The notes below the pieces were generated by a model, which was not told the DNA's origin, made no database searches, and was given only the letters and a program-made list of their open reading frames with translations. Below, in pieces: positions 4,911 to 40,258 of a stretch of 64,000 bases of DNA. Position 1 is the first letter of the stretch, and each line of letters opens with the position of its first letter. The stretch covers positions 1,302,001 through 1,366,000 of the forward strand of contig OZ025790.1 in assembly GCA_964019425.1 (NCBI GenBank). Direction: 5' to 3'. This stretch comes from Flectonema sp. DT1601. Lineage: Eukaryota; Euglenozoa; Diplonemea; Diplonemida; Diplonemidae. Made by a program: the position numbers and the translations under genes.

Positions 4911-4920
4911 GTTCGATTCC
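4911..4920 (+). promoter_or_regulatory. B-box element upstream of U1 (cluster I)
   Basis: GTTCGATTCC matches the tRNA-type B-box consensus. It begins 86 nt before the inferred U1 start, as in the other two U1 copies. Confidence 0.85.
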
Positions 4921-4996
4921 GGGTCGAAGCATGATAAACTAGCTGATTGTAAAATTATCGGCCTCCTGGAAAGCTTTCGAAGGATATTTTGAGAAG

Positions 4997-5156
4997 TACA
5001 TACCTGATTGGTGTCTGGCCTGATCACGTAGGGTGCCGACATAACAACGGTCCTTGCATTGCACTTCGCTTGGAACGTTGTTAGGGGGCTGGTTTCGGCT
5101 GGCTTCCCACAATGAAATTTTTGGTAGCGGTGGTGCTGCGCTTGCGCAAACCCACC
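4997..5156 (+). ncRNA. U1 spliceosomal snRNA, copy 1
   Basis: The 160-nt RNA begins UACAUACCUG, the 5' splice-site recognition end of U1 (usual form UACUUACCUG). It contains GAUCACG in the first stem-loop (U1-70K site), UUGCAC in the second loop (U1A-type site), an Sm site AAUUUUUGG and a strong 3' hairpin GCGC/GCGC. A T9 run follows at 5160, consistent with Pol III termination. The U-to-A change in the recognition end predicts preference for GUAUGU donors, which this genome uses. The copies at 22021 and 40099 are almost identical. Confidence 0.95.
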
Positions 5157-5254
5157 TTATTTTTTTTTACTGTAAATTCCACCGATACTCAATGGAGCAT
5201 TTTTTTAAAGCCAATCTGTGAGAATATTTCACTTTATAGAATTTCGACTGTCAA

Positions 5255-5264
5255 GTTCGAATCC
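5255..5264 (+). promoter_or_regulatory. B-box element upstream of U3 (cluster I)
   Basis: GTTCGAATCC begins 87 nt before the inferred U3 start. Confidence 0.85.
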
Positions 5265-5341
5265 CGGTGAAGGCGAGAAGTGACTCTCTTTTGGTGGATA
5301 GGCAATCCCCTGAACGAAGCTGTGAGGGAGTTTTAGAGATT

Positions 5342-5519
5342 AAGACTGTACTCTACACAGGATCTGTTTTTGAGTACATTCGTGTTGGAGTTTACATAAC
5401 CCAGCACAAGGCCAAAGCTGGATGATGACGTAGACCAGCACTGTGCCGCATGAGCATTGCGATGATTGCATACGATGCGTCAAGTTTCACCTTGACAAGC
5501 ACAGTCTGGTCACTTACAG
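5342..5519 (+). ncRNA. U3 snoRNA, copy 1
   Basis: The RNA begins AAGACUGUACUC, the conserved GAC/5' end of U3, followed by GGAUC of box A. Further on come GAUGAUGA (C'-type box), GCGAUGAUUGC (box C) and CAGUCUGG (box D) closing the terminal stem. The length of about 178 nt is slightly short for U3. A T6 run follows directly. U3 guides early pre-rRNA processing in the nucleolus. The copies at 22334 and 37985 are near identical, and the 3' end given is inferred. Confidence 0.85.
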
Positions 5520-5733
5520 CTTTTTTAATAAAATCAACATAAGAATGTTGCCTTTCAAAAAAAGGCATCTAACCTGATCCTTTTGGTTTGGCTGGGTAAG
5601 GATAATTATGATAATTACTAACCTGTAATAACTGTGTAACCAGCTTAAGACTGTTTTATTTTAGCAGATAAAACACATTCTGACAAGTCTTTCTTTGGTG
5701 AATTATATTCCGAAGGCATATAATAATTCACCA

Positions 5734-5743
5734 GTTCGATTCC
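5734..5743 (+). promoter_or_regulatory. B-box element upstream of U5 (cluster I)
   Basis: GTTCGATTCC begins 87 nt before the inferred U5 start. Confidence 0.85.
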
Positions 5744-5820
5744 CGCTGTTGACTACTTTCGATGCATCGTCCAGGAGAAGAGGCATCTCTGTTCCTTTGC
5801 TCCAATACTTTTTTGAGAGC

Positions 5821-5931
5821 ATCTCACGATTCTTGTTCATATCGAACTCATCTTTCGCCTTTTACTAAAGATGACCGTGGACATGCATCACTAAGTGAAA
5901 ACTTAATTTTTATAGAGACCTCGCTGTCTCC
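5821..5931 (+). ncRNA. U5 spliceosomal snRNA, copy 1
   Basis: The invariant loop I, CGCCUUUUACUAAAG, lies 35 nt from the start, as in known U5 RNAs, and sits on a stem closed by UCUUU/AAAGA. An Sm-type site AAUUUUUAUAG and the final stem AGACCUCGCUGUCU follow. T4 and T5 runs come next. The start is placed by family alignment and by the shared 86-87 nt spacing to the B box. Confidence 0.93.
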
Positions 5932-6117
5932 TTTTAATTTTTAGGGAAACGCATGCAAAAATCGGTGACTTTTTTTGTATAGAGTTGCTATATTCTTTAT
6001 TACACCTCACTTTTTCTTAGGAAATCGTCTTAACGATGACAGTCCACTTGCAGTTTTTTTATTAGATGGACAATTACAATTTTTTTCCTTAAGTCACTAG
6101 CAAACTGGATCACAAAA

Positions 6118-9100
6118 ATGATACGACTCGAGCAGATGGAAGAGGAAGGATATGAAAGTGGGGAGGTGAACAACACCAAAAAGCTCTTCTGGCGGATATT
6201 CGCAGCGATTGTAATTATAATTGCGTTGGTTATGCTAGTGACCACAGTGGTTAAGGCGAAGAGTGAGAAAACAACGATTGATTTTACAAGGGTTCCAACC
6301 CCAAGTCCTACAAGTGCAGCACCAACAGTACGACTTGTTGATGGGAACGTTGCGAGTGAGGGAAGGGTTGAGCTCTACCACAACGGATCGTGGGGTACAA
6401 TTTGCGGAGATAATTGGGATGCACGAGACGCCCACGTTGTCTGCCAATCACTTGGCTATGTAGGAGCACGTGATGCTCCACTGCACGCCTATTTTGGAGA
6501 AGGAAAGCTTCCTATTTTATTAGATGATGTGAATTGCGAAGGTGACGAGAACAGCATTTTTGATTGTCGTCATCCACCATACTACACACATGACTGTCTT
6601 CACAGCCAAGATGCAAGTGCTATATGCCTCAACAGTAATGTAGACGACACATGTGATTCATCTTGTAAGGCTTTCCCTATTCATTTTACGACTACAGCCG
6701 CTACGGTTCTGTTATTGTGTGATGTAAGAGGTCATTTTATTTCATCACCCTCCGTCAATAAGGATGTTCGGGTTAGCAGTGGTGTTGGTTCAACGATAGT
6801 AGTCCCAATTGACCTGTCGAACTCTTCAAGCTCTGATGTGATCTTTGAGTTGTTTTTAAACAGACGACCAGCTGCTTCAGTACTTCGGTCTTGGAGTGAT
6901 TTCTGTTCTTTGCGTGTTCCCGAAGGGACGATCAGCGGGAAATATGTAGCCAACAGAGTTGGTGAGGTCTCAGAAATCGGTAGAATTGTAACATACAGCA
7001 GCGGATGGGAATTCTCATCGGTGGAAGAATTTCCGAGTTTTGTTGGTGAATTTATAATATTCCCAAAGCAGATTGCTGCTACTCCATCCCCTCCTCCTCC
7101 TTGTCCTGCATCAGAAGAACTCATCAGTGGTGCGTACATATCAGGGTACGCACTGCATGATTCAAACATATACGACGTGGACACAGCTGTAGCAAAATGC
7201 CGGGACTACAACTGGGCTTGTGGAGGTGTTACGTGTACGACTGTCTCTTCGTGCACACTCAGGAGTGATTCCTCTCCAAAGGCTTCAAGTTCATCTGAGT
7301 ACACATGTTTAAAACAAGAACAGAAACTGATATCCAACCAATCAAAATGCATTGCTTGGAGAGCAACAAACGACTGTTCTGGAAGCGGAGATCTCATCAA
7401 AGAAGCGATAACTCAAAATTGTTCTTATGACATAGGGCAATCTGATTCTGGGATTTGCCAATGTGGGGGAAGAAGAGTGCTACCAATTTCATGTAATGAT
7501 AAACAAACAGTCAATCCGTTTAACTGTTCTTATGCGTGCAGTCTGCCTCCTGTTGATGAATGTGTTGATAATAATCCGTGTGAGGGATTTCCGTGTGCTG
7601 ATCCCTCTTCAGCTCAGCTTAATGATGTATTTTGTTCTTGTACCGATGGCTTACTTGGCGTCTCAATAAACTCACCTCCTGAATGCAGATCACCTTTCGT
7701 TGCTGTGGCTGGGGATTCTTTTGGTTGTCCAAAACAACTATTTCCTATTGACTCTCTAAATTCTTGTAGAAACGCATTCTTAGCCACCAACTCTGACGTT
7801 GAAAATGTTAAGGTTACTCTCAGTGATTACAACGGATGCGTTGTTGTTGATGATGAGGTGTATTGGGGATACCCAACTATACCACAAAATTTAAATTCAA
7901 CAGCGATTAACATAAGCAATATCGATACTTACACTTTGTGTGATACTCGTGAGTTACCTGGGGGACTTATCCCACCCCCAGAAGACAATAAACAGTCGGA
8001 AGAGATACAGCAGTTTGCAGTTGGTGAAGTACTGCAGCAATTATCTGAGGATTTGAGAAGGCATGTCGAGGTTAAAATAAAGTTTGATTCTCGTTGGGAT
8101 GGTTGCAGCCTGTCGTCTAATACGAATCAGAGCAGTCAATCAAAACCTGTTGTGGTTTCTGGGAACTCAGGTATCGCAGTGCTAAAGTGTGTGTACAAAT
8201 ACCTCATGGCTAACAACATGTCAACGTCGTGGGGTAGGTTCGGATCAAAGAACAATCTAAACCGACAAAATGATTGGAAAATTCAAAAAATTTCATTATC
8301 GAGTAAAGTCCCTTACAGATATGCTTTAAACGAAGTTACCTTCAGCTACACTAGCGCTTGGTGGGATTGGGACCAGTGGAGTGATCACATTAACTGGCTT
8401 GCCCTTCGAGGTGTAAACCTACCACTCGCACCAGTCGGACAAGAGTATCTCTGGGCTGAAGTCTACAGAGAGATTGGACTCACTGAAGAAGAGATTATGG
8501 ACCACTTTGGTAGCCCAGCATACCAGGCATGGGTTCGAATGGGGAATTTAGAAGGTTTCGGTGGAGGAGTTTCCGAAGCATTTCTACTGAAAAGACATTT
8601 ATTGCAGAAGAGAATTTTAAAGAAGATGACTAGCTTGGGAATGCACCCGGTGCTGCCAGCATTCGCTGGACATGTCCCTAGAGGGCTTGTGAGAGCGTAT
8701 CCGAACTCTTCGTTTGTTGAGGGTGGGGAGTGGAATGGTTTTCCTGGAGCAGTGTTTTTGCAACCGACTGATGAGTTATTCGCTGAGATAGCAGAAAAAT
8801 TTATAAATATTCAAATTAAATCTTACAATGGAACTGATCACTGGTACAGCGCTGATTCTTTCAACGAAATGATCCCATCTCAAACATCAACAGAATACCT
8901 CCAACAATCATCAACAGCTGTCTTGAGGGGAATAAAGAACGCTGATCCTAACGGTAAATGGATTCTTCAAGGGTGGTTCTTTACGAGACAATGGTGGGTA
9001 CAAAGGGACTATTTAGTAAAAGCATATTTAAGTAGTGTATCGCCGTCAGATGTTCTCATCTTAGATTTGAATAGCGTTATTGATCCAGTGTATGCCCGCA

Positions 9101-10185
9101 CCAATCAGTACTATGGACATTCATATGTTTGGTGTTTGTTACATAATTATGGTGGTAGGAATTTGATTTATGGAAATCTTGATGAAGTTTTTGAATCAGC
9201 GAAGACAGCAATGTCGAATGTGATGGGAGGACTCTCAGGTATCGGGATTACAATGGAAGGTTTAAATCAAAATGATATAATTTACGATATGACTCTAGAG
9301 TTGGCATGGCTTGACAACGACATCCCCGACAGAGGTGATTTCATATCAAAATGGACTCGGTCTTGGATCACAAGCAGGTACTCAAGCAGCCTTCCTATTC
9401 AAAGTTGGGAAATATTACTGAAAACAATGTACCGCACAAGTATGGAACCTCCTCTTAATAAATGGGTTATCTACGGTAGGCCATCTCTAACAGAGAGGTG
9501 TTCTTGCATCTACTGCAAACCAGAGCATAGCATTCACTCAGCATGGTCGTTATTTCTTAACGATAAAAATGCTTTGGGAGGGAGTCAGGTTTGGAGGTCA
9601 GATTTAGCTGTGCTAACGGGATTGGTATTGCAGAGCAGTGCTTGTAGGGTGATTGATGAATTGGTTACCGAGGTTGGTGATTTTCATTCTGGAGAACTAC
9701 TGGTAGAGACGGCTATAACAAACATAACAACGACCATGAAAGATTTAGAACAGATCCTCATCACTCTGGATGAGGTTCTCTCAACAGACGTCAACACTCA
9801 ACTATCCTGTTGGTTGTCTGACGCTGCCAAGTCTGGTGTTTCTCAAGACGAAAAAAACTCTTTTGTGGAGAGTGCTGCTCGTTTGGTCACATCCTGGGGA
9901 TTAACTTCTGCTCTGAATGACTATGCAAAACGTCATTGGGGAGGACTAGTTCGATCGTATTATCTCCCTCGATGGCAAATATTGAGATCTCAAATTCGTC
10001 AAATTCTCATAAACGGAACTGATCCCGATAGTTCTCTAATTCAGTTTGAACAATCATGGCCAGAGAGTCTATACGCTGATAACTTTACTACGGTAGTAGG
10101 TGGTTGCCTTCCTGTTGGTGACATTGTTCAGATTGCCGAAGAAGTGAGGCTGAAATACTATCCCGAACTGGTTGGTGTCAAGTAA
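6118..10185 (+). CDS. Membrane-anchored SRCR-GH89 protein, alpha-N-acetylglucosaminidase (NAGLU-like)
   Basis: A single uninterrupted frame of 1355 residues. A short acidic cytosolic tail precedes a membrane anchor (about 26-46), making it type II. An SRCR domain follows (about 72-172, VRLVDG...GRVELYHNGSWGTIC...VVCQSLGY, with paired cysteines). A Cys-rich region with an EGF-like part runs to about 530. The NAGLU N-terminal domain starts near 625. The GH89 catalytic part (about 732-1110) carries DSFNEM and MEGLNQ, matching the two catalytic glutamates of human NAGLU (FNE and PEGI). A helical C-terminal domain completes the family length. GH89 enzymes remove terminal alpha-GlcNAc from heparan sulfate-type glycans. 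The SRCR/TM front end suggests a surface or vacuolar-membrane enzyme rather than a soluble lysosomal one. No intron is seen. Confidence 0.9.
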   Translation: MIRLEQMEEEGYESGEVNNTKKLFWRIFAAIVIIIALVMLVTTVVKAKSEKTTIDFTRVPTPSPTSAAPTVRLVDGNVASEGRVELYHNGSWGTICGDNWDARDAHVVCQSLGYVGARDAPLHAYFGEGKLPILLDDVNCEGDENSIFDCRHPPYYTHDCLHSQDASAICLNSNVDDTCDSSCKAFPIHFTTTAATVLLLCDVRGHFISSPSVNKDVRVSSGVGSTIVVPIDLSNSSSSDVIFELFLNRRPAASVLRSWSDFCSLRVPEGTISGKYVANRVGEVSEIGRIVTYSSGWEFSSVEEFPSFVGEFIIFPKQIAATPSPPPPCPASEELISGAYISGYALHDSNIYDVDTAVAKCRDYNWACGGVTCTTVSSCTLRSDSSPKASSSSEYTCLKQEQKLISNQSKCIAWRATNDCSGSGDLIKEAITQNCSYDIGQSDSGICQCGGRRVLPISCNDKQTVNPFNCSYACSLPPVDECVDNNPCEGFPCADPSSAQLNDVFCSCTDGLLGVSINSPPECRSPFVAVAGDSFGCPKQLFPIDSLNSCRNAFLATNSDVENVKVTLSDYNGCVVVDDEVYWGYPTIPQNLNSTAINISNIDTYTLCDTRELPGGLIPPPEDNKQSEEIQQFAVGEVLQQLSEDLRRHVEVKIKFDSRWDGCSLSSNTNQSSQSKPVVVSGNSGIAVLKCVYKYLMANNMSTSWGRFGSKNNLNRQNDWKIQKISLSSKVPYRYALNEVTFSYTSAWWDWDQWSDHINWLALRGVNLPLAPVGQEYLWAEVYREIGLTEEEIMDHFGSPAYQAWVRMGNLEGFGGGVSEAFLLKRHLLQKRILKKMTSLGMHPVLPAFAGHVPRGLVRAYPNSSFVEGGEWNGFPGAVFLQPTDELFAEIAEKFINIQIKSYNGTDHWYSADSFNEMIPSQTSTEYLQQSSTAVLRGIKNADPNGKWILQGWFFTRQWWVQRDYLVKAYLSSVSPSDVLILDLNSVIDPVYARTNQYYGHSYVWCLLHNYGGRNLIYGNLDEVFESAKTAMSNVMGGLSGIGITMEGLNQNDIIYDMTLELAWLDNDIPDRGDFISKWTRSWITSRYSSSLPIQSWEILLKTMYRTSMEPPLNKWVIYGRPSLTERCSCIYCKPEHSIHSAWSLFLNDKNALGGSQVWRSDLAVLTGLVLQSSACRVIDELVTEVGDFHSGELLVETAITNITTTMKDLEQILITLDEVLSTDVNTQLSCWLSDAAKSGVSQDEKNSFVESAARLVTSWGLTSALNDYAKRHWGGLVRSYYLPRWQILRSQIRQILINGTDPDSSLIQFEQSWPESLYADNFTTVVGGCLPVGDIVQIAEEVRLKYYPELVGVK

Positions 10186-10451: not shown

Positions 10452-13400
10452 ATGAAAAATAAAGTTGATAACCTCGACATAGAAATGGAATCCAGGGGTG
10501 AAGAAGATGAAGAGGAAGAAGAAGAGTCGGAGGGCGATGATGAAGATGCTCACCTTGTGAGCGAATCTGCTGACCTCCAAAACGATCCTATAATTGATTT
10601 CTTTTTGAGAAAATTTAAGGAAATCGAGCGCGCGAAATTAGTCGTTGCGGTTCTTTTATTCATTTCTCTTGGAGCGTTCCTCGCGCTGCTTCCTGCTAGA
10701 ATGTTGAAGGCATCGTACGAATCTGAAGTTCATTTTTCAATTCGAGACGAACACTACACTAATTCTGTCAACGCGCTAAACAACGACTTAGCTGTGTCAA
10801 AACTTACATTCGTTCACATGAGGTGCACGTGGAATCCTACAACCGACACCATCGCTGATTACACTACTCAAAAGAATAACCTTCTGGGTAGCCTATCAAA
10901 ATCGTCAGCAAAATTAAATTTCTCAAACATATTATCACTACAGGAACTTAATAAAGCTTCTCAGTTAATCGACGCTTGGATACCTAAGGCTGATGCGATA
11001 GTACATCGATTGGAATTATTCACCCAAGCCGAGCAGCATAAAAAAAAAGTGTCAGCCGGATTACCTTTATCAGTCACCCTCCAAGAATACCACGAAGACA
11101 TAATTAATATTTGCGAGGTTGAGATTGCGGCTTTGAAAGAAGTTAATTTGATAGTGTTGCAAACACAACAACGGAAAGCGATTGCTACATGGGAAGCGGG
11201 TCTCAACGCATTGCTTCGAGAATCGATCTTATTAACGGAAGCAGAGTACTTAGTACTACTACACGGTACTTCTAAACGCCACATTGAATTAAATAAAGCA
11301 ATCATGAGGTTCAGAGCTGCAATTCAAATGATTCAGAACGTATTAGTGGCGGATCAGGCTGCTGAGTCTTCTGAGACTAACATTTTCCCAACAGTTATCA
11401 ATTCACACATTGCGATATTAACAACTACGTCGTGGGTATCATTATTAAATGAAGAGGAGTCAAGAATAACAGTGATCGCAAGTGATAGAGTCGCTCAGGG
11501 GGTCTCTTCGGATGACTTTCAAACGATCGTAAGCGACTCTCATTCTGTCGGTCACGTCCTTCCAACTCAACCCTTATTGGAGGTTGTTAGGTTGGAAAAA
11601 GAATCTTTTCTAATTGAAAAAAAATTTGGTGTTTCAAACGTCCAGTTCGAATCCCTGTTTTGGATGTCTTTGATAACGTTTTTCTCGTTAGCGGTCATGA
11701 ATGCAGTGCTTCCGGATTGTAAAGGGATAACGAATTTATCATACATGAGTCACGGAATGGTGTACATGGCTATTTTGTTAGGATCCTGTGCTATCATTGC
11801 GAGCCTTATCGTGTCGGCTTCAGAGTTGGAACAAGACCTTCAGAAGGATATGGGTGTGTCTCATAGAACACTTGTTGACACTGCATCCGCAACAAAGAAA
11901 TGGATTCACTGCCTTGTCTTAATTGATGAACACTTGATGTTAGGGACTGAAGACTCACGATTTAAACTAGAGGATTGCTACACAGAGTTGAATGCTATCA
12001 TTGAATTGTTCAACATGAGACTCCCTGATACATTCATTAGAGCAGCTAGAGAGTTATCCAACTTGAGAAGGAGAGCTTTCATACCTGAAGTTAGCATGAC
12101 TGAAGGTGCGATTATGAAAAAGATTCAAAAACTTCAGATTGAAAGCGGGTCTAGAATTGATAAAAAAAGATCTCTACTTACTTCAAGCATAGCTGAAATC
12201 GACGATGATGAAAATAAATTGGGAAATAAACTTTTTGATATTACCATGGCAAGTAATCAGATTACCGGAACAATCTACAAATCGTTAGTCGGAATGACTC
12301 CACATGGAAAAATTGATATCGGAGTTGCTAAGGTGTTTCTCAGTTCTCTAAACCAACAACTCTCTGATAGTCTGAAATCATTACTTTCTGAATCACTAGT
12401 TGGGTCTCACACTACCATTAACAACAGCCTTACTATGCTAAGAGAGGTCGATGACGATATTCACAAGTATTGGGGGGATCTAATTCAAAATGTTGAACGG
12501 TTGTCGGATTTCAAATCACACTCTCCGGTGTTGGAAACTGTTAAAAGCAATCGTTTGGAAATATACAACACGACTTGGCTATTACAAGAACTCGATGCAA
12601 TTATCGGAGATAAGACGGTAGCATCTCAGAATGAAGCGTTGGGTTATTTAGATTCAAAGAGATCTCAAATTCGTCATCTTCGTATTGACGTCAGTTGGGT
12701 AGCAGCTCTCAGCGTCATAATCTGTACCGGATACTGGTATGATTATTTTTTTTTCTTCTTCTGGGAAAATAAAATGGAAACTCTTTTCTTCGTTACTTAG
12801 AAAATTAGTATAATATGCAGTAAATAAAATGGGGCGAAAAGAAGCAGGAGAGTCGTCCGTACTTTTGTCTCTGGGGCGTGCGGACGTCAAGATTTTTCGC
12901 TCGAACGCTTTCATCCTTTTCTTGGGTGGGGGTTTAAGGTTCTTTTTTTTTTTGTAAAAGTGCGGCCTTGGCTCCACTGGTCGGTGTTTCCCGGGAGTGG
13001 AAAGCATGCTTGGGTCAGAGTGTTCCTCGTTGACCGAGGCAGGGTGTGTGCCTCCTGAGGAGAACAAACCCTCGCAACCAGAGCGAAAAAGATGTGTGTG
13101 CATCATAAGTTTTGGCCCGATTTTCCAGGTCCTATCCGTCACCGCAGCGAAGAAGAGAAAATTTTTTAAAGGAAATCAAATAGGGATTTAATATTTCTAT
13201 CGGCACTGAAGGTTACACTTTCTGTTCCTCTTGTTATCTTTGCGTGAGCCTCCTCGGGAATCATTAATTACTTGGTATTTACTACTGGTGGTACTAAATA
13301 CCACGGGAATTTCCACAAGTGGATTACCGCCTTGTTATACTACTATTTTTTCTGTTTTTTTTAAGATAAATCCAATCACTACACACACAGGGCTGTCATA

Positions 13401-21633: not shown

Positions 21634-21643
21634 GTTCAATTCC
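21634..21643 (+). promoter_or_regulatory. B-box element upstream of U4
   Basis: GTTCAATTCC, a permitted B-box variant, begins 87 nt before the inferred U4 start. Confidence 0.8.
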
Positions 21644-21720
21644 CGGTGGGGGCAGTCTCCCGGACCAGAAATCCGCAAGGTTGTCGATGGGGTCAAAAAA
21701 AATGAAGACTATTTGAGGTT

Positions 21721-21862
21721 ATCCTTGCGCTCGGGAAGAATCTACAGACAATGACCTAACAGGGATGTCGTAGAGAAATTGCTGGTTGAAAACTACCCAA
21801 TTGCCCGTTTGGCAGCGCTTCGGTGCTGACCAAACAATTTCTGTAACTGCCACTTGGCAGTC
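21721..21862 (+). ncRNA. U4 spliceosomal snRNA
   Basis: The start AUCCUUGCGC is exactly complementary to the invariant GCGCAAGGAU of U6 (U4/U6 stem II). An AAUGA...GGGAU internal loop of k-turn type follows. AUUGCUGGUUGAAAACU, the U4/U6 stem I side, matches fungal U4 closely. A hairpin (GGCAGCGCUUCGGUGCUGACC), an Sm-like site AAUUUCUG and a final stem CUGCCACUUGGCAG complete it. TCTTTT follows. This is the only U4 in the window. It was located by looking 87 nt downstream of a B box. Confidence 0.9.
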
Positions 21863-21934: not shown

Positions 21935-21944
21935 GTTCGATTCC
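21935..21944 (+). promoter_or_regulatory. B-box element upstream of U1 (cluster II)
   Basis: GTTCGATTCC begins 86 nt before U1 copy 2. Confidence 0.85.
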
Positions 21945-22020: not shown

Positions 22021-22180
22021 TACATACCTGATTGGTGTCTGGCCTGATCACGTAGGGTGCCGACATAACAACGGTCCTTGCATTGCACTTCGCTTGGAAC
22101 GTTGTTAGGGGGCTGGTTTCGGCTGGCTTCCCACAATGAAATTTTTGGTAGCGGTGGTGCTGCGCTTGCGCAAACCCACC
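22021..22180 (+). ncRNA. U1 spliceosomal snRNA, copy 2
   Basis: Identical or nearly so to the copy at 4997 over 160 nt, with the same UACAUACCUG 5' end, Sm site AAUUUUUGG and terminal hairpin, and followed by a T9 run. The upstream 86 nt is also conserved, with one C/T difference near 22002. Confidence 0.95.
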
Positions 22181-22246
22181 TTATTTTTTTTTACTGTAAA
22201 TTCCACCGATCAATGGAGCATTTTTTTATAGAATTTCGACCGTCAA

Positions 22247-22256
22247 GTTCGAATCC
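22247..22256 (+). promoter_or_regulatory. B-box element upstream of U3 (cluster II)
   Basis: GTTCGAATCC begins 87 nt before U3 copy 2. Confidence 0.85.
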
Positions 22257-22333: not shown

Positions 22334-22511
22334 AAGACTGTACTCTACACAGGATCTGTTTTTGAGTACATTCGTGTTGGAGTTTACATAACCCAGCACA
22401 AGGCCAAAGCTGGATGATGACGTAGACCAGCACTGTGCCGCATGAGCATTGCGATGATTGCATACGATGCGTCAAGTTTCACCTTGACAAGCACAGTCTG
22501 GTCACTTACAG
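22334..22511 (+). ncRNA. U3 snoRNA, copy 2
   Basis: Same sequence as the copy at 5342, with GAC start, box A, GAUGAUGA, box C and CAGUCUGG box D, ending just before a T6 run. It follows U1 directly, as in cluster I. Confidence 0.85.
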
Positions 22512-22969
22512 CTTTTTTAATAATCAAGTGGGTCTCTTCCTTTGAAAGTTGACTTTTCAAATTTTATGATTTGAATTAAAACTTACAGCTTTTTTAATAT
22601 AAATCGATATAAGTGCGTGCACATCACCTGATGAATGATGCAGTAGCCATTTTTCTTTTGCTGGCAAGCTGGAAGTCGAGCCAATACTATGAAACTACAA
22701 TCTTCGCGATTGGGTACTGATGCGGGCTAAATTTGGGCTTTTGGTTGCCTAAATTCTGATGCATTTTGGATGGCTGCGCAATTACTGAAATAAAACAAAA
22801 ATGTTCCTCGCAATGATTTTTCATTTCTTCCTGTTCCTGAGACATTGTCCTTTTTTTGATTGACAACTTGTAATAACTATGTAACCAAGCAGCAAGACTA
22901 TATTTTTAGCTTTCTGACAAGTCTTTCTTTGGTGAATTATATATTCCGAAGGCATGTAATAATTCACCA
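22512..22969. other. Spacer between U3 and U5 in cluster II
   Basis: The U3 tail word 'acttacagcttttttaata' recurs at about 22581-22600, so the spacer contains a small duplication of the U3 3' end. No further snRNA signature was recognised, and no B box was seen other than the U5 one at the end. Confidence 0.4.
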
Positions 22970-22979
22970 GTTCGATTCC
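22970..22979 (+). promoter_or_regulatory. B-box element upstream of U5 (cluster II)
   Basis: GTTCGATTCC begins 86 nt before U5 copy 2. Confidence 0.85.
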
Positions 22980-23055: not shown

Positions 23056-23166
23056 ATCTCACGATTCTTGTTCATATCGAACTCATCTTTCGCCTTTTAC
23101 TAAAGATGACCGTGGACATGCATCACTAAGTGAAAACTTAATTTTTATAGAGACCTCGCTGTCTCC
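23056..23166 (+). ncRNA. U5 spliceosomal snRNA, copy 2
   Basis: Matches the copy at 5821 over 111 nt, including loop I CGCCUUUUACUAAAG, the Sm-type site and the last stem, and is followed by TTTTAATTTT. Confidence 0.93.
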
Positions 23167-23237: not shown

Positions 23238-23247
23238 GTTCGATTCC
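23238..23247 (+). promoter_or_regulatory. B-box element upstream of U2 (cluster II)
   Basis: GTTCGATTCC begins 86 nt before U2 copy 1. Confidence 0.85.
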
Positions 23248-23323
23248 CAGTGACACACGGGTTTCTTCCTAAAATAAAGGATCCGACGTCTGCGGGGTAA
23301 GTGAAGTTGTTCTTTTCAAGTTC

Positions 23324-23512
23324 ATACCTTCTCGGCCTTTTGGCTAAGATCAAGTGTAGTATCTGTTCTTATCAGCTTAATATCTGATATGACACCTTGT
23401 GTGTCAACGATATTATAGTAATTTCTTGTTGGGGTGTCGGGTAGCTTGGGGCAACTCAGGTCCGGCACAAGTGTTGCCCTGGAGCTGCACCACATCCAGG
23501 AGTGGCACACCC
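23324..23512 (+). ncRNA. U2 spliceosomal snRNA, copy 1
   Basis: The start AUACCUUCUCGGCCUUUUGG and the following UAAGAUCAAGUGUAGUAUCUG contain the U6-pairing region and the branch-site recognition word GUGUAGUA. UUAAUAUCUGAUA of stem IIa is present. The 3' part has the large stem-loops with CUCAGGUCCGGC and the terminal GUGGCACACCC. T5 follows. The 189-nt length is normal for U2. Confidence 0.97.
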
Positions 23513-23958
23513 ATTTTTAATTAAGCAGAAGACAAAGTCTCTTTGCTGTGGAACCCTGAGGAGATTTGGTTCCGTTGGAGTCACAATGGATGTGATTCGA
23601 CGCAACTGTTGATCGAGAGTTCTAGTCACACCAGTCTACCATTGGATTTGAAGTTCTACTGTAGTGAGAGCCTGTTGCTTTTATTGAAAGCCTTACTGTC
23701 TTCCTAGCAGTGTGTTCAGACTTTGCTGAATTATACTAACTCGTTGAGCAGATTGTAAAATGAAATCGTTCGTAAGAAGGCTTTCAGTCGTTCTCGAGTT
23801 CTGATCAATCTACTGCACTATTCAAGAAAGCTGCTTTTCAGTATTTCCTTATTACTTTACGATTGTTGCCGCCATTTTGAACACTTCAGCAATTTTAATA
23901 TTTTAATAAATATTTTTGTCTTTCAGATTACTAAAAAAAAGAAGCAAATAAAACAACA
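23513..23958 (+). other. Leader of the ubiquitin-like/LRR gene
   Basis: No ORF of note. Positions 23813-23940 are repeated in the relic at 478-598. A segment near 23565-23600 ('gatttggttccgttggagtcacaatggatg') recurs at 30371-30407, in the same position relative to a U2 copy, so U2 and this leader were duplicated together. The 'tttgtctttcag' at 23926 is a good 3' splice site shortly before the ATG. Confidence 0.6.
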
Positions 23959-30056: not shown

Positions 30057-30245
30057 ATACCTTCTCGGCCTTTTGGCTAAGATCAAGTGTAGTATCTGTT
30101 CTTATCAGCTTAATATCTGATATGACACTTTGTGTGTCAACGATATTATAGTAATTTCTTGTTGGGGTGTCGGGTAGCTTGGGGCAACTCAGGTCCGGCA
30201 CAAGTGTTGCCCTGGAGCTGCACCACATCCAGGAGTGGCACACCC
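30057..30245 (+). ncRNA. U2 snRNA copy 2, without upstream B box
   Basis: The 189-nt RNA region matches the other two U2 copies with a single C-to-T difference near 30128 and has the same T5 end. The proximal 15-20 bases upstream are conserved, but the B box expected 86 nt upstream is absent. It is either a recent silent copy or a gene using another element. Downstream, 30371-30407 repeat part of the leader found after U2 copy 1. Confidence 0.8.
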
Positions 30246-30845
30246 ATTTTTAATTAAAGCAGAAGACAAAGTCTCTTTTGAAATTTGAGAAGTTTCAGCA
30301 CCGTGAAGAAGAAAAATCTCTTCTTCACATAGTACTGAATGCTGTGTTTCCCAATTAATTGTGAGGGAAATTTCCCAGATTTGGTTCCGTTGGAGTCACA
30401 ATGGATGGGAAACAGAGCACAGATGTAATGTGGTTGTCGCAGTCAATCTCCATGGAATATTCTACGCTCACAATAACTTCGTGTGTTGTTAAATCTAAGA
30501 AGTACGAAATGTGAGATTTCATACATTGTGACAGGGATTTCTCTACTAGGAGCTTATTGAATCAGCAGTGGCGTTGTCAAAGTCAGTGAAGCCCGTCCTC
30601 TAAATATTAAAGACAGTTGTCATTAGAGAGTGCATCGATTGTGTTTTCGACAGTTGTAGCCATCTTTTTATATTTCGACAACGCTCATGTTTGTTTTGGA
30701 TGTGAGTGATTCAGTACAAACCAACACTATAATGGGATAACAGCAGAAGTCAGCAACAATGAAACGCGGGAAATTGTCGTCTCCGGAAGAATGCATATAA
30801 GATGTGACCGTGTGTCTATCGAGATCAGTTTCAGTAACTAGTTAA

Positions 30846-31248: not shown

Positions 31249-31289
31249 GCTGTAAAATAACTTCATATTTTGTGCTGCCATACTATAGT

Positions 31290-33570: not shown

Positions 33571-35360
33571 TTTTTCATTACTTGTTTTCCATTAGTGTGA
33601 TTTGCTTAGAAAATGTAGATGAAGGAATAATCTTTTTTTTTTTTTTTTTGGCATCGGCCACTTTCCATTCAGCTCGAACAAGAGAGGGAGCAGTTATTTG
33701 TTGAATCTGAATGATTTTTTTATATAAAAATAAAAGAAAGGTGATCACGCGCGAAGTACAATTCGAGTGTTGCACTTCTTTTTTTGTTGTTAATACATTA
33801 TCGATGAGGGGCAATCAGACAAAATAGTAGTAATTAGTAATTACCGATTATTATTACTATTATTTTATAATTGCGTGTTTTTTTGTATTTTTCCCCCCTT
33901 TTTCTTTTCTTTCATTTTCTCTTTCAGAAAAACAAAAAAAACACAAAAAAATAATAATATTTTTTTTTTCGAAGTAAGAAGAGTTCTTATTTTCTCTTGC
34001 TGGGTTTTTTTTTTAAAAAGATGAAGAAGGATATTCATCCGTTCATTACGACAAAAATACTTTTCTTACAACAAGCATAGCTCCCCGAGGCAATTCGTAA
34101 TTGAATAACTCGATTTCGTACTGCACTGAATGACAACACGGAAACAACGAAACATTTAAAAATCCTCCACGTCATTTGCAGAGTGTGTTTACCTGTAGTC
34201 GCTGTGTTTCATAAGATTTTTTAATTTCATTATTTAGGTTTTGATAGAATGCCCAGTTGAATGGTTTACCTCCCGAGGCAATGCATTGAAAAATTCTTCT
34301 TTTTTTTTTTTTTCCCCCTCCATGACTACTACATAACTAGCTGTGGTTAGAGTTTTTTGTTGCTTGGTCACAATCTACAGAAAAAACAGAGAAAAAAAAA
34401 ACGACGAAAATTCGCCGTGTTGCGTTCTGACTTCCTTGGGGTCATCTTCGGTTCTTTCTTGGAAGCAGATGGCGGCGTGCTTTTGAGCCGCCGTGTCTTC
34501 TTTCTGTGTTAAGATTGAAACAGCTGATTTGTTGAAGCTGTGAGGTTGGTCTCTATCACTGACTTCTTTTCGTGTTTTTGATGTGAACCTTGTGAGTGTT
34601 GGGCTTTGCCCAAGTTTATGTTATTAAAAGAAGCGATCGAAAACATATTTGTTTCCTTTTTTATTTATTTTTTTTTTTTTGCTGTCTTGTGTGTTGTCGC
34701 CAAACGAAAAAAAAAACAAAAAAAATAACAATAACTGTATGACAATGGCAGCAGAACTGGAGGTGACTGGTATCCCCCGTTAATTAACTTTTTGATTCAA
34801 CGCATTTATTTTATATCATTATTAAGTAAGTTCAAGAATGGTTAATTTCCCCAACGTGAGCATTTATTACTTTATTGATTCATCAGCAGTCTCAGTCGGG
34901 AAGCGAAACTTTGTTAACTCATCGTTTTTTGTTTTTGTTTTTGTTTTTTTTTTTATCTAAAAAAAAAAAGGGAAATGTGTTTGTAAGATAAAAGAGCTGT
35001 AATGTCGGATGTGAAGGTGAAAATCGACTCGCTCTCCAATTAGTGAAAAAAAAAATTATAGATTCGAGAATTAAAAAAATAAGAGAAAAGACAGAGAACA
35101 AATATCAAAAAAAAAAAAAAAAAACAACAACCTCATCTTATTACTTGTATTGTTCAGTACTCTGGTTCCACACGAAGAAAACACGTTCGTTTAGTTCTCT
35201 GTACAGTTTCTTTTTTTTTTGTATGTTTATTGGTTATTGTCTTTTTTTTTTAAAACCAGATGATCATGCATGAGTCCTCTCCGGGAGAGGTAATTATTTC
35301 ATCATTCGTATTGTTTTTGACACATCACTTCTCAGACATCTACGTAGAACTAAATGATAA

Positions 35361-37634
35361 ATGCTGAATAAAGCATCCCTCTTAAACGGAACCGAACGTG
35401 CCGTGATAAGAGATGAGTTGAGCAGGAGAAGCACCTCACCATTAGGAGAAGTAAGATGTGTGACATGCACACTACCATTAGTTGAAGGGAGATGTCCTAA
35501 CGGGCATGGAGTAGAAACTCCAAAGTACAAAAGCCAAACAACTAGAAGCATATCTCCAAGAAGGGGAGACTCAGTGTTCTCACCAGGTTCTGGAAAGATG
35601 AAGATCACTACGTTGAGCCCTCACACAGTGAGAGGTACTAATACCTACAAAGACTTATCTAGATATTCGGATCACAAGATGCGTTGTTACATAACGCCTG
35701 AGTTAGTGTTAAAGGCTGTGCGTAAACAACTTCATCGCTCAAACGCACAGCTCCATGAAGTTGAACACCTCGTGTTAAAGTGTAAAGGTATCGGAGAACA
35801 GTACGTCAGAATTGAAAATCTTGGAGGCCTCATAAATCTAAAATCCCTCGCAGCTGCCAATCACACATTCTCAAAAATCGACGGCCTCCAACCACTTATA
35901 AACTTAGTCTCATTAGACCTGTCGGGTAATCGCATTCAAAAGATTGAAGGAATTAGCTCTTTAGTCCATCTCAGGGAATTGAACTTGGCTGATAATTTCA
36001 TTGAACACATTCCGTTGCACACGATGTTTCCGAAGAATATTGAGGCTATGAGCTTAGCTAACAACAGGTTATCAACACTTGATGATCTTCACAACTTCAG
36101 AGAAATGACATCATTGCTGTACATTGATTTGAGAGATAACGCAGTTTGTGAACACGCACACTACAGAAGTGTGGCTGCATATGCCGCATTAAGTATAAGG
36201 TATTTGGATGACGTCGAAGTTACTGAAATGGAGCGAAGTGCAGCAATCTATCATTGGGACAGGAAAGGTCTCAGGCCTCTTGAATCTGAGTTGAAAGATT
36301 CCCGAAAAGAAGCTGCCAAGTTAAAAAGAGAACTCGATTTGATGAAATCTGAGTCGTCACAAAAAGATGGTCAGCTTGAAGCCCTGTCAACACTATTAAA
36401 GATGACAACTTCAGAGTCACAGACCACTCGAAAAGACAAGGAAAGTACTGAGAATTGTCTTGCTCAACGCGAGGAAACCTTGTCTGACATGAGAACCATG
36501 TTACTTCAAACAAAGTCTGATTTTGAGTTTTTAAAAATCGAGCTTGAAACTTTGTATCCTGATGCCGCAAAGGCGATTATTGACAAATGTACAAATACCC
36601 TACCTGGTATTGAAGTCCCAAATGTGGAATCTAGTGCTAAGAAACCGCCAACACAAGCAGCAGTGTCTCCACCTTCGCCACCCACAACACCAGGTTGGCA
36701 AAATACTGCTGACAGGGATGCAGGACAGTCATCTCTTGTTCCACAGTCATTACTGAAGCGGTATGATGATATTTCTGGTAATGCGGAAGAACAATCAGCC
36801 CCTCGAGGATCTCTGTTAAAAAAGTACAGTGAATTATCAAGCAGGCCTAGCCCTGCCACTGTTTCGCAACAGCAATATTTTCAGGGGAATGGTTTACCCA
36901 GTCCAGCCCCATCAGCACCAAAATCGTTGTTGAAAAAATATGACGAGCTTAGTGGTAAGAGTCAGCAGCCAGATACCCTTGTTCCACAATCCTTAGTTCG
37001 AAGGTATGATGACAAACAAGCGGATGGTTTCCCTCCTTCTCACTCCCCTCCACCAAACGCTTCCGTTAAGGGCAAGTCAGTCACAAATTCTTCTGTCCCT
37101 GACGCAAAAGTCACGCAGTCAGGACCTAACATTCCACTAACGTACTCGTCTCTCTTAGAAAAAAGGGATCCAATGCATAGGAGGCAAAGTGGTGCTTCTG
37201 AAGAGTCGCTAAAGAGAACTCTCAGTCCTCACGAAGTTTTGATGGGAGAGGGACCTGTTGAGGTGAGTATGAATAGTTCTTTTGCATCAGCAAGTCCTTC
37301 TGTAGTCACATCAGCGGCAGCTTCAGTTGACGTAAAATTCATGAGTTTGATTAGAAAGGCCCTTCATTGTGAGAAGTGTGCCGAAGCCTATGAGAAAAAA
37401 CGCCTCACTGAGCTTCGTAAATGCAGTCCTGACCATGTTCTTGGTGAGCTCCAAATTTCAGTGCCTGGCTTCACCAAGGAGCTAACTGAAAAAGAAATTG
37501 TTGCCTTTGCACATCGAAAACTTGAATTTCATAAGCAGCGTTCAACCTGGTGTCTTGCTAAGTACGATGAGTGCATGGCATCTTGCAACCGCTACTTGCG
37601 AAGAGCCAGGGACCTGGTCCCTGAAATATCATAA
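35361..37634 (+). CDS. LRR (SDS22-type) and coiled-coil protein with repeated SLL(K/R)(K/R)Y motifs
   Basis: 757 residues, single exon. Near the start lies a CVTC...CPNGH zinc-ribbon-like motif (about 33-50). SDS22-type LRRs run from about 125 to 290 (LVSLDLSGNRIQKIEGISSL and LRELNLADNFIEHI) and end in a LRR-cap-like segment with YRSVAAYAALSIRYLD. A coiled coil follows (about 305-405). The C-terminal half repeats a short motif, SLLKRYDDISG, SLLKKYSELSS, SLLKKYDELSG and SLVRRYDDK, between Pro/Ser-rich linkers. SDS22-LRR plus coiled coil is common in axonemal and centrosomal proteins. The repeated motif looks like a multivalent docking site. The exact orthologue is not recognised. Confidence 0.8.
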   Translation: MLNKASLLNGTERAVIRDELSRRSTSPLGEVRCVTCTLPLVEGRCPNGHGVETPKYKSQTTRSISPRRGDSVFSPGSGKMKITTLSPHTVRGTNTYKDLSRYSDHKMRCYITPELVLKAVRKQLHRSNAQLHEVEHLVLKCKGIGEQYVRIENLGGLINLKSLAAANHTFSKIDGLQPLINLVSLDLSGNRIQKIEGISSLVHLRELNLADNFIEHIPLHTMFPKNIEAMSLANNRLSTLDDLHNFREMTSLLYIDLRDNAVCEHAHYRSVAAYAALSIRYLDDVEVTEMERSAAIYHWDRKGLRPLESELKDSRKEAAKLKRELDLMKSESSQKDGQLEALSTLLKMTTSESQTTRKDKESTENCLAQREETLSDMRTMLLQTKSDFEFLKIELETLYPDAAKAIIDKCTNTLPGIEVPNVESSAKKPPTQAAVSPPSPPTTPGWQNTADRDAGQSSLVPQSLLKRYDDISGNAEEQSAPRGSLLKKYSELSSRPSPATVSQQQYFQGNGLPSPAPSAPKSLLKKYDELSGKSQQPDTLVPQSLVRRYDDKQADGFPPSHSPPPNASVKGKSVTNSSVPDAKVTQSGPNIPLTYSSLLEKRDPMHRRQSGASEESLKRTLSPHEVLMGEGPVEVSMNSSFASASPSVVTSAAASVDVKFMSLIRKALHCEKCAEAYEKKRLTELRKCSPDHVLGELQISVPGFTKELTEKEIVAFAHRKLEFHKQRSTWCLAKYDECMASCNRYLRRARDLVPEIS

Positions 37635-37898
37635 GACTCAACAACTGAATCATAACTTTAGATCCGATTTGTATTATGTTTTTTTGTAACTCAAGAAAAA
37701 GAAAGGTAATTATTCTGACTTCCGCGTGCCAACCCTGCTTACCAGGAACATCGGCTTGTCTACTGAAATGTGTTTTTTAGTTGTCTTCCTTTTTTTGTTT
37801 CTCCCTCTTTTCTTGTATCGCAGTTACTGAGTGTCCAGAGAATGTGTTGCAGCAAACTGCATGCAGAATAATTTCTTTCTTTTCGGCAGTACAATCAA

Positions 37899-37908
37899 GT
37901 TCGAATCC
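37899..37908 (+). promoter_or_regulatory. B-box element upstream of U3 (cluster III)
   Basis: GTTCGAATCC begins 86 nt before U3 copy 3. One base is missing from the spacer compared with the other U3 genes. Confidence 0.85.
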
Positions 37909-37984
37909 CGGTGAAGGCTATAAGTGACTCTCTTTTGGTGATAGGCAGCCCCCTGAACGAAGCTGTGAGGGAGTTTTAGAGATT

Positions 37985-38162
37985 AAGACTGTACTCTACA
38001 CAGGATCTGTTTTTGAGTACATTCGTGTTGGAGTTTACATAACCCAGCACAAGGCCAAAGCTGGATGATGACGTAGACCAGCACTGTGCCGCATGAGCAT
38101 TGCGATGATTGCATACGATGCGTCAAGTTTTACCTTGACAAGCACAGTCTGGTCACTTACAG
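37985..38162 (+). ncRNA. U3 snoRNA, copy 3
   Basis: Matches the copies at 5342 and 22334 (one C/T difference near 38131), with all boxes present and a T6 run after it. Confidence 0.85.
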
Positions 38163-38289
38163 CTTTTTTAATAAAATCAACATAAGAAATGTTCCTCGCG
38201 ATGATTCATAAGACATTCGAGAATCCATTGAATTAAGTTCCAAGCTTTCCTGTCCAAAGTCTAGCCAAGATGTCACTTTTATTCATTCA

Positions 38290-38299
38290 GTTCGAATCC
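38290..38299 (+). promoter_or_regulatory. B-box element upstream of U2 (cluster III)
   Basis: GTTCGAATCC begins 86 nt before U2 copy 3. The 60 bases after it are also conserved with U2 copy 1. Confidence 0.85.
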
Positions 38300-38375
38300 C
38301 CGTGAAGTATGGTTTTCTTCCTAGAATAAAGGATCCGGCGTCTGCGGGGTAAGTGAAGTTGTTCTTTTCAAGTTC

Positions 38376-38564
38376 ATACCTTCTCGGCCTTTTGGCTAAG
38401 ATCAAGTGTAGTATCTGTTCTTATCAGCTTAATATCTGATATGACACCTTGTGTGTCAACGATATTATAGTAATTTCTTGTTGGGGTGTCGGGTAGCTTG
38501 GGGCAACTCAGGTCCGGCACAAGTGTTGCCCTGGAGCTGCACCACATCCAGGAGTGGCACACCC
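38376..38564 (+). ncRNA. U2 spliceosomal snRNA, copy 3
   Basis: Same 189-nt RNA as at 23324, with branch-site recognition word GUGUAGUA and terminal GUGGCACACCC, followed by T5. It ends only 72 bases before the next ATG. Confidence 0.97.
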
Positions 38565-38636
38565 ATTTTTAATTAAAGCAGAGATAGTTTATGTCTTGAA
38601 TATACAAGCCATTTTAATCAGAGCAAGCCAGCCCAA

Positions 38637-39998
38637 ATGGATTTGGTAGTAACCCTGCCTGACAGCAGAAGCATCACGATATCCATTTCTCGCAACACTC
38701 TCGTCTGTGATGCAAAGATTTTCATTGCTGAGAATGAAGGTCTGCAGGAGAGTATGTTTGACCTTACCGTGGAAGGCGACGTGCTGGATGAAACGAGAAA
38801 TATTAATTCTTACGGGATTCACGACGCCACTGACGTCGTTGTTGAGGTTTCAAGAAAAGCGATTGCAATAAAGAGGATCGGGTGTGAAGTCACTGCTGCT
38901 CATCTCAAAAATGCAATCAAATCTGGTAATGATATCAGCTTGATAGGAGAATACTTTTACGCAGGTATATCAATCAACGAAAACCTAGGATCGCGAAAGA
39001 CGCCCTTGTTTCATGCTGCAAAATGTGGAAACCGTGACTTGTGCGCTTTACTACTAGATATACCCGGTATTGATCCAAAGGTAACAAGCGAAGGTGGTTT
39101 AACTGCGTTTTCTGCTGCTGTTGAAAATAATCATTTGGAAGTTGTGAAATTGTTTTTGAATAAAGATAATCTGGATTTTGGCAACGATGGTGACAATGGT
39201 CAGAATTCATTTCTTACTGCTTGTGAAAATGGAAATCTTGAAATGGTCAAGCTACTGTGGGAATACTGCTTCAGTAAAACTGGTTGGAAACAACAAGATG
39301 GAATGTGTAATCCATACCTTTCTTGTTGCAAAAGCCTTCGTCCTTTCGAAACATTAAAATACCTGGTCTCTATAGAGTCTCTTCATCATTGTATAAACGC
39401 ACTTCACAGAGGGGGTACGGCTCTGCATCTGGCCTGTACAAGTTTCAATGATGACGAAGGACAGTTAATCGATTTATTGTTGCAAATACCCGACATAAAT
39501 CCAGATATTGTAAACGAGTCGTTTGGATTCACTGCTCTGATTTTTCTGTGCGGCAGTGGATCATCTCTTGAGAAAGTTAAGAAATTAGTAGAGTTCGGAG
39601 CAGATGTAAACATACAAACCAATCAAGGTAAACAGACTGCTTTACTAGAAGCAGTTCGAGTTGGTGAGTTGGATATTGTCAAATATCTTTGTGATCATCG
39701 TGACATAGACAGGTCCGCAGTATCCAACACAGGATTGTCTGCAATCTGCATTGCTGCTCTGAGAAATGACATTCCTGTTATGTCTTGTCTCACTTCGTAT
39801 GGCGACTTAAATATAAATGCTTCCGATGAATATGGGAGAACTCCGTTGCAAATATCATGTGGTTATAGCCAATTAGAAGCAGTGCAGAAATTAGTTGAAC
39901 ATCCAAATGTTGATATCAACACTCGAGACATTTTCGGAACCACTCCTCTTTTGAGTCTGTTGCTTGGAAGTGAATCTGTGAGGAAGATCCAGCATTAG
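38637..39998 (+). CDS. Ubiquitin-like domain plus ankyrin repeats
   Basis: 453 residues, single exon. Residues 1-78 follow the ubiquitin-like pattern (MDLVVTLPDSRSITISIS start, DAKIFIAENEG helix, LTVEGDVLDETRNINSYGI, then VVVEV). Ankyrin repeats cover about 95-450 (KTPLFHAAKCGNRDLCALLL, GLTAFSAAVENNHLEVVKLF, GTALHLAC, KQTALLEAVRVGELDIVKYL, GRTPLQISCGYSQLEAVQKL). The protein ends soon after the last repeat. The gene sits between U2 (72 bases upstream) and the U1 B box (15 bases downstream of the stop), so protein and RNA genes are tightly interleaved. It shares the N-terminal design with the ubiquitin-like/LRR gene. Probably a protein-interaction adaptor; role unknown. Confidence 0.85.
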   Translation: MDLVVTLPDSRSITISISRNTLVCDAKIFIAENEGLQESMFDLTVEGDVLDETRNINSYGIHDATDVVVEVSRKAIAIKRIGCEVTAAHLKNAIKSGNDISLIGEYFYAGISINENLGSRKTPLFHAAKCGNRDLCALLLDIPGIDPKVTSEGGLTAFSAAVENNHLEVVKLFLNKDNLDFGNDGDNGQNSFLTACENGNLEMVKLLWEYCFSKTGWKQQDGMCNPYLSCCKSLRPFETLKYLVSIESLHHCINALHRGGTALHLACTSFNDDEGQLIDLLLQIPDINPDIVNESFGFTALIFLCGSGSSLEKVKKLVEFGADVNIQTNQGKQTALLEAVRVGELDIVKYLCDHRDIDRSAVSNTGLSAICIAALRNDIPVMSCLTSYGDLNINASDEYGRTPLQISCGYSQLEAVQKLVEHPNVDINTRDIFGTTPLLSLLLGSESVRKIQH

Positions 39999-40012
39999 AC
40001 GCCGATCGTCAG

Positions 40013-40022
40013 GTTCGATTCC
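40013..40022 (+). promoter_or_regulatory. B-box element upstream of U1 (cluster III)
   Basis: GTTCGATTCC begins 86 nt before U1 copy 3. Confidence 0.85.
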
Positions 40023-40098
40023 GGGTCGAAGCATGATAAACTAGCTGGTTCTGAAATTGTCGGCCTCCTGGAAAGCTTCTGAAGGATATTTTGAGAAG

Positions 40099-40258
40099 TA
40101 CATACCTGATTGGTGTCTGGCCTGATCACGTAGGGTGCCGACATAACAACGGTCCTTGCATTGCACTTCGCTTGGAACGTTGTTAGGGGGCTGGTTTCGG
40201 CTGGCTTCCCACAATGAAATTTTTGGTAGCGGTGGTGCTGCGCTTGCGCAAACCCACC
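40099..40258 (+). ncRNA. U1 spliceosomal snRNA, copy 3
   Basis: Same 160-nt RNA as at 4997 and 22021. A T7 run follows at 40262. After it, an 18-bp unit 'cctcatcttatgcgaag' is repeated twice (40311-40347). Confidence 0.95.

Follow-up and report, generated by a model that had tools for sequence, protein, structure and literature searches.

We analysed a 64,000-nucleotide stretch of the genome of the diplonemid Flectonema sp. DT1601 (GenBank assembly GCA_964019425.1, contig OZ025790.1, positions 1,302,001 to 1,366,000 of the forward strand; hereafter "the window"). The window carries genes for the small nuclear RNAs (snRNAs) U1, U2, U4 and U5 and for U3 small nucleolar RNA (snoRNA), almost all of which are preceded at a set distance by a tRNA-type B box (GTTCRANTCC). 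Three U1, three U2, one U4 and two U5 genes match Rfam families above the gathering score. Three U3 genes match RF01848 at 46-47 bits, below the gathering score of 55; they begin with AAGACTGTACTC, a start typical of U3, and belong to a family of nine copies genome-wide. ARAGORN detected no tRNA in the window.

The B box consensus matches the window 16 times, compared with 1.38 matches expected from dinucleotide-preserving shuffles, and 0 of 100 shuffles reached 16. Eleven of the matches are boxes ahead of RNA genes, the same 11 that an initial annotation of this DNA had listed; the other five lie inside open reading frames (ORFs), at 11645, 14992, 28205, 35975 and 42760. That annotation had also described a box-to-start spacing of 86 or 87 and a box at only two of the three U2 genes. 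Both descriptions hold: the spacing is 86 or 87 in all 11 boxed genes, and the U2 gene at 30057 has no box. Likewise, each of the 12 RNAs has a T4-T9 run no more than 4 bases from its end, in keeping with the T-runs noted earlier.

Boxed RNA genes across the genome

Family or DNA searches of the 89.5 Mb, 92-contig assembly for U1-U6, U3 and 7SL found 35 copies, corresponding to at least 4 U1, at least 9 U2, at least 9 U3, at least 1 U4, at least 4 U5, at least 5 U6 and at least 3 7SL genes. The 7SL model gave matches over its cut-off in 0 of 14 prokaryote control genomes, and below-cut-off matches in 5 of the 14. A B box lies upstream, on the RNA strand, in 32 of the 35 copies; 31 of these boxes are exact and one, at a 7SL gene, has one mismatch. 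The three copies without a box are U2 genes in every case. Thus the genome-wide scan for boxes before small RNA genes, which had been proposed along with the initial annotation, bears out the pattern, brings in U6 and 7SL, and separates two sub-classes of gene (see below).

Spacing from box to RNA start is 86 bp for U1, 85-86 bp for U2, 81 and 85-87 bp for U3, 87 bp for U4 and 85-87 bp for U5. It is 76-77 bp for U6 and 78 bp for 7SL, which is about 9-10 bp shorter than for U1-U5 and U3. A divergent U6 copy (46.6 bits; locus L017, 1501-1601) has its box at -58 from the Rfam start, and long T-runs lie between its box and the RNA; this copy is either a pseudogene or a variant U6. We also observed a box on contig C9 (position 1140589, between U5 and U3) that is followed by U1-promoter-like sequence and no U1 gene, and that is perhaps what is left of a deleted U1 unit. 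In a cross-species comparison with IMG/VR viral contigs, exact U2 and U6 patterns gave 0 matches and an SL-tail pattern (for the spliced leader, see below) matched one contig.

Table 1. Boxes, RNA genes and start-proximal elements in the window (positions are those of the window; negative numbers give the distance of the box from the RNA start)
Feature	Position	Strand	Details
B box, U1 copy 1	4911..4920	+	GTTCGATTCC, -86
B box, U3 copy 1	5255..5264	+	GTTCGAATCC, -87
B box, U5 copy 1	5734..5743	+	GTTCGATTCC, -87
B box, U4	21634..21643	+	GTTCAATTCC, -87
B box, U1 copy 2	21935..21944	+	-86
B box, U3 copy 2	22247..22256	+	-87
B box, U5 copy 2	22970..22979	+	-86
B box, U2 copy 1	23238..23247	+	-86
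B box, U3 copy 3	37899..37908	+	-86
B box, U2 copy 2	38290..38299	+	-86
B box, U1 copy 3	40013..40022	+	-86
U1 snRNA copy 1	4997..5157	+	Rfam RF00003, 83.8 bits; T9 run after
U3 snoRNA copy 1	5342..5522	+	Rfam RF01848, 46.1 bits, below gathering; T6 at end
U5 snRNA copy 1	5821..5931	+	Rfam RF00020, 80.9 bits; T5 internal, T4 terminal
U4 snRNA, sole copy found	21721..21859	+	Rfam RF00015, 75.1 bits
U1 snRNA copy 2	22021..22181	+	Rfam
U3 snoRNA copy 2	22334..22514	+	Rfam, below gathering; family of nine
U5 snRNA copy 2	23056..23166	+	Rfam
U2 snRNA copy 1	23324..23515	+	Rfam RF00004, 151 bits
U2 snRNA copy without B box, intact body	30057..30248	+	Rfam, 152.3 bits
U3 snoRNA copy 3	37985..38165	+	Rfam, below gathering; family of nine
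U2 snRNA copy 2	38376..38567	+	Rfam
U1 snRNA copy 3	40099..40259	+	Rfam
Start-proximal element, U1 copy 1	4986..4996	+	ATTTTGAGAAG; same position in window U1 copies 2 and 3
Start-proximal element, U3 copy 1	5331..5341	+	TTTTAGAGATT; same position in window U3 copies 2 and 3
Start-proximal element, U5 copy 1	5810..5820	+	TTTTTGAGAGC; same position in window U5 copy 2
Start-proximal element, U4	21710..21720	+	TATTTGAGGTT
Start-proximal element, U2 copy 1	23313..23323	+	TTTTCAAGTTC; also at this position in U2 copy 2 and in box-less U2 30057

Among window ORFs of at least 200 codons, 23 of 26 lie on one strand, as in euglenozoan polycistrons. A 909-amino-acid ORF at 58651-61380 has a YIDD motif, which we presume to be reverse-transcriptase-like, making this ORF a candidate only.

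Promoter anatomy, sub-classes and RNA 3' ends

In 19 chosen paralogue pairs, which are not independent, mean identity is 0.58 before the box (0.57 for shuffled sequence), 0.63 in the 9 nt directly before it, 0.91 in and around it, 0.77 onward to the start region, and 0.83 over the final 12 nt. Since identity falls to the shuffled level before the box, we conclude that the promoter starts at the box. An A directly precedes the box in 31 of the 32 boxed copies; in boxes ending in TCC, that A opposes a C and would disrupt the T-stem.

We looked for an A box (consensus TRGYNNARNNGG) in five regions of 15 representative boxed copies: both strands of the stretch 15-64 nt ahead of the box, both strands between box and start, and the sense strand of the first 40 nt of the RNA. 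Mean best mismatches were 2.33-2.80, as against 2.02-2.69 for shuffled sequence; four tRNAs of the same genome, which served as a positive control, have 0-1 mismatch to the consensus. In the 300 bp ahead of each copy, ARAGORN found no companion tRNA. It did detect tRNAs farther off, and hence works on these loci: a divergent tRNA-Glu, the nearest of them, stands 324 bp ahead of a U3 gene on contig C72 (L044, 1104-1176), a tRNA-Ser lies 1,073 bp upstream of the U3 gene on C15 (L045, 346-427), and a convergent tRNA-Arg lies downstream of a U2 gene on C11 (L033, 2026-2099). These tRNAs recall linkages in trypanosomatids and Euglena, yet they are farther away than known companions. The earlier description of a box that stands alone, with no tRNA, therefore extends to the genome. 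No TATA element was found between -40 and -18 in any of the 32 boxed copies. Thus, the genes do not fit a type 2 (tRNA-like, internal) promoter for RNA polymerase III (Pol III), because the box lies upstream of the mature RNA and A-box scores are at chance; nor do they have the TATA element near -30 of a type 3 external Pol III promoter.

A second element divides the genes into two sub-classes. GTCATTTTT stands exactly 17 nt past the box start, about 60 bp upstream of the RNA start, in U6 (5/5) and 7SL (3/3), and is absent from U1-U5 and U3. These latter genes instead have a TTTTNAG-like proximal element, [AT]TTTN(1-2)AG, that begins at -10 or -11 in 20 of 24 boxed copies. The proximal element is also present in 3/3 box-less U2 copies and in 0/8 copies of U6 and 7SL. 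Its shuffle probability is 0.0075-0.017 (one copy per RNA type), a descriptive figure given that the motif was derived from the same sequences.

We compared T-runs in 28 of the 35 copies. The terminal run is longer than the longest internal run in 24 of them, the exceptions being four U5 copies. Terminal and internal runs are, respectively, T7-9 and T5 for U1, T5-6 and T4 for U2, T6-10 and T5 for U3, T4 and T3 for U4, T7-20 and T2 for U6, and T6-7 and T3 for 7SL; at one 7SL gene the T-run lies 18 nt beyond the Rfam end. T-runs also occur between box and start, with T5-T8 in all six U6 and 7SL copies examined and T4-T8 in four U5 copies.

B boxes elsewhere in the genome

The strong form of the box, YMAGTTCGAWTCC, has 566 genome matches, compared with 4 for the reversed control and 18-30 predicted by order 1-5 Markov models with 178 kb of training sequence, an excess of some 20-fold. 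Only 27 of the 566 are RNA-gene boxes, leaving about 540 further copies. The form GGTTCRANTCC, which includes tRNA boxes, has 993 matches (control, 175; Markov, 217-366). We sampled 91 strong-form solo sites, taken first by contig order and not at random, and dropped one repeat copy to leave 90 (e.g. L047-L076, L084-L143). ORFs contain 63 of these, with all six frames represented and the two strands about equally so. Their flanks are weakly conserved (A at -8, G/C at +13 and +15), and a T4 run is found in +18 to +32 at 27/90 sites, as against 6-13/90 in eight other windows. A repeated unit (L090, L102, L120, L135) has a box followed by a T-run. Rfam searches of 20 of the 90 solo loci gave one match: the strand of L090 opposite the box carries a fragment of large-subunit rRNA.

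A genome search for the box combined with the proximal element gave 44 matches (control, 0), of which 19 are known RNA genes by coordinate. We rejected the other 25 as new genes: 4 of the 91 solo sites match this combination, compared with 3.0 expected when the downstream sequence is shuffled, so that 25 matches are about the chance level for some 540 solo boxes. One idea is that the solo boxes are extra sites for the transcription factor TFIIIC, possibly forming a genome-wide network.

A gene-external promoter for Pol III as the favoured interpretation

What is observed is the sequence anatomy, how regular it is across the genome, where conservation begins, and the capacity to encode Tau95 (see below). 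From these observations we infer, with a probability of roughly 0.7, TFIIIC binding, the polymerase and the start sites of a Pol III promoter that is external to the gene and based on a stand-alone B box. Each boxed U1-U5, U3, U6 and 7SL gene would have its own external promoter of ~90 bp that begins at the box. TFIIIC would bind the box, TFIIIB and Pol III would be placed at the RNA start 76-87 bp downstream, a second element (TTTTNAG-like at -10/-11 in most U1-U5 and U3 genes, GTCATTTTT in U6 and 7SL) would help to fix the start, and transcription would stop at the 3' T-run; the terminal runs that exceed internal ones in 24 of 28 copies speak for this reading. The TFIIIC subunit Tau95 is encoded in the genome, by a 619-amino-acid ORF with both Tau95 domains (7.3e-28 and 1.9e-13). 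U6 and 7SL are ordinarily Pol III genes, and Pol III is well supported for them here; for U1-U5 and U3 it is only inferred.

Several observations weigh against this interpretation. The strangest is the polarity of the box: on a tRNA gene, TFIIIC polarity places TFIIIB 5' of the B box, and the side expected for TFIIIB therefore faces away from the RNA start here. All spacings rest on RNA starts that are Rfam-based. One mismatch to the A-box consensus was reached in 4 of 75 scans, with no common place. The proximal element is missing from 4 of the 24 boxed copies (U1 on C65, U3 on C15, and U3 and U5 on C9), which retain a T-run at that place. Judging from the solo loci searched with Rfam, a box alone makes no gene. 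Finally, the U2 gene at 30057 has an intact body, and its best match to the box has two mismatches and lies at -37. The upstream sequence of this gene is shortened or replaced, and we predict the gene to be weak or silent. The other two box-less U2 copies speak for the interpretation, as their bodies are altered and score lower. One, a second copy on C11 (L036; 108.5 bits), has the same sequence as U2 30057 at 199 of 200 bp upstream, and its body diverges from an intact copy after 83 nt; the other, on C9 (L037; 66.5 bits), has a diverged body. All three box-less copies score over 46, the cut-off of the family. Also in favour is a report that U2 copies of T. cruzi that lack box B are not expressed (PMC4950102).

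Two further points against Pol III favour the alternative that survives best, namely that RNA polymerase II (Pol II) makes U1-U5 and U3 from a core of the type found at the spliced-leader (SL) RNA gene (TTTTNAG at -10/-11), that TFIIIC on the box is accessory or chromatin-opening, and that Pol III makes U6 and 7SL only. The SL RNA gene carries the proximal element in the same register as U1-U5 and U3, and in 4/4 copies of U5 the internal run is T5 and the terminal run merely T4. T-runs at the RNA ends, which the initial annotation had noted, are not Pol III-specific evidence here, given the runs of U5 and the T7 run that closes the SL RNA gene too. The split between the sub-classes, moreover, matches that of RNAs that usually have modified caps. 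These features keep Pol II in play for U1-U5 and U3, but we consider it an unlikely explanation. At the SL RNA gene, the closest match to a B box within -130 to -1 differs at four positions, and that in a wider stretch at three, so a gene with the proximal element does without the box, which argues that the box is not part of the SL machinery; furthermore, U6 and 7SL have the same box at similar spacing. Hence there are two overlapping groupings, with the box before U1-U6, U3 and 7SL, and the proximal element at U1-U5, U3 and SL. SL RNA is a Pol II product in trypanosomatids (PMC10781861), whereas trypanosomatid snRNAs are all Pol III products (PMC10781861, PMC4950102). Thus Pol III for the whole set, as the initial annotation proposed, is plausible because the same box precedes U6 and 7SL and because of the trypanosomatid precedent; it is not established for U1-U5 and U3, whose proximal element is common to the SL gene.

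An SL-tail pattern (two or fewer mismatches) has 759 genome matches (control, 0), and at the one locus read (L019, SL exon 1481-1519) the SL gene is tandemly repeated together with 5S rRNA. The exon is AACCAACGATTCTAAAGCTACAGTTTCTGTACTTTATTG, and its tail is common to kinetoplastids, which rules it out as a diplonemid-specific marker. It is the 5' part of the exon that points to a diplonemid as the most likely host: the exon matches the 'Euglenozoa 14' entry at 37 of 39 positions (PMC3795323). This entry is presumably Diplonema.

We consider it improbable that Pol III begins upstream of the box and reads through it, with the 5' leader then cleaved off as in yeast RPR1 or SNR52. The box has the same orientation as the RNA, like a B box inside a transcription unit, and a leader would resolve the puzzle of its polarity. 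However, upstream of the box A-box scores do not improve on shuffled sequence, paralogue identity there is likewise at the shuffled level, and the T-runs that separate box from start in U6, 7SL and U5 should halt such a transcript. Least likely of all, and barely credible, is that the boxes are functionless relics of tandem duplication after loss of a companion tRNA: the clustered paralogues are duplicates and the box resembles that of tRNA genes, but it is common to seven unrelated RNA types, shows the highest conservation of any segment when diverged copies are compared, follows an A that mostly opposes C and would break the T-stem, and differs in polarity from the trypanosomatid companion tRNA.

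The external Pol III promoter that we favour has its closest counterparts in trypanosomatids. There, snRNAs are made under the upstream A and B boxes of oppositely directed tRNAs or tRNA-like sequences (PMC4950102, PMC10781861); box A lies ~104 bp upstream, box B of L. major U2 lies 150 bp upstream (PMC4950102), and in T. brucei Tau95 is found on the U2 promoter (PMC10781861, PMC4950102). As in the snRNA, U3 and 7SL promoters of T. brucei, Leishmania and Leptomonas, the host is a euglenozoan, the same RNA genes are served, a B box lies upstream at a set distance, use of TFIIIC and Pol III is expected, and some U2 copies have lost the box. In contrast to these promoters, the box here is on the RNA strand at 76-87 bp, an A box is undetected and no tRNA is nearby. 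The likeness that the initial annotation drew is thus sound as regards an upstream B box at a set distance; that the polarity of the box is opposite had been missed. The best reading of the layout is as a variant of the trypanosomatid tRNA-linked promoters in which polarity is reversed and the A box and tRNA are gone. In Euglena gracilis, as here, U3 is clustered with U5 and most U3 genes are unlinked to tRNA, but U3 and U5 are convergent there, and the available text describes no upstream stand-alone B box (PMC2784804).

More distant parallels can also be drawn. Like yeast RPR1, SNR52 and SNR6, the genes have a B box outside the mature RNA and in the orientation of the gene. However, the yeast genes, in which the B box lies in a transcribed leader (RPR1, SNR52) or downstream (SNR6), have an A box, whereas none was detected here; a further difference is that U6, 7SL and U5 have T-runs between box and start. 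Like vertebrate and plant type 3 snRNA promoters, which have a proximal or upstream sequence element (PSE or USE) with or without TATA, the promoter is gene-external, acts at a fixed distance, and applies one scheme to U6-type and U1-U5-type genes with a small difference in elements; unlike them, its upstream element is a B box, and TATA is lacking. The initial annotation had excluded Pol III products from the trimethyl cap route, which to our knowledge does not hold for trypanosomatid snRNAs.

More tentatively, and at somewhat less than even odds, this may be a new Pol III promoter type: a solo B box without an A box, used by TFIIIC in reverse relative to a tRNA gene and driving all snRNAs, U3 and 7SL. 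In such a promoter, the start-proximal element common to the SL gene would be what sorts capped-type RNAs from U6 and 7SL, and boxes elsewhere might form a TFIIIC network. We found no description of an upstream stand-alone B-box layout in the literature searched, including passages of PMC12621601, PMC10161547 and PMC2784804, and 'polymerase III' had 0 matches in the main text of two diplonemid papers (PMC12621601, PMC10161547).

Trypanosomatid snRNA genes borrow the promoter of a neighbouring tRNA, and it is not settled how they are driven from a divergent tRNA (PMC4950102). A relative that has the B box alone, at a fixed distance and in reversed polarity, is a minimal system in which this question can be tested. 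It also points to a way in which a single promoter scheme might cover U6/7SL as well as the U1-U5 set, the two being told apart by a small second element, in a member of the diplonemids, one of the most abundant groups of marine protists.

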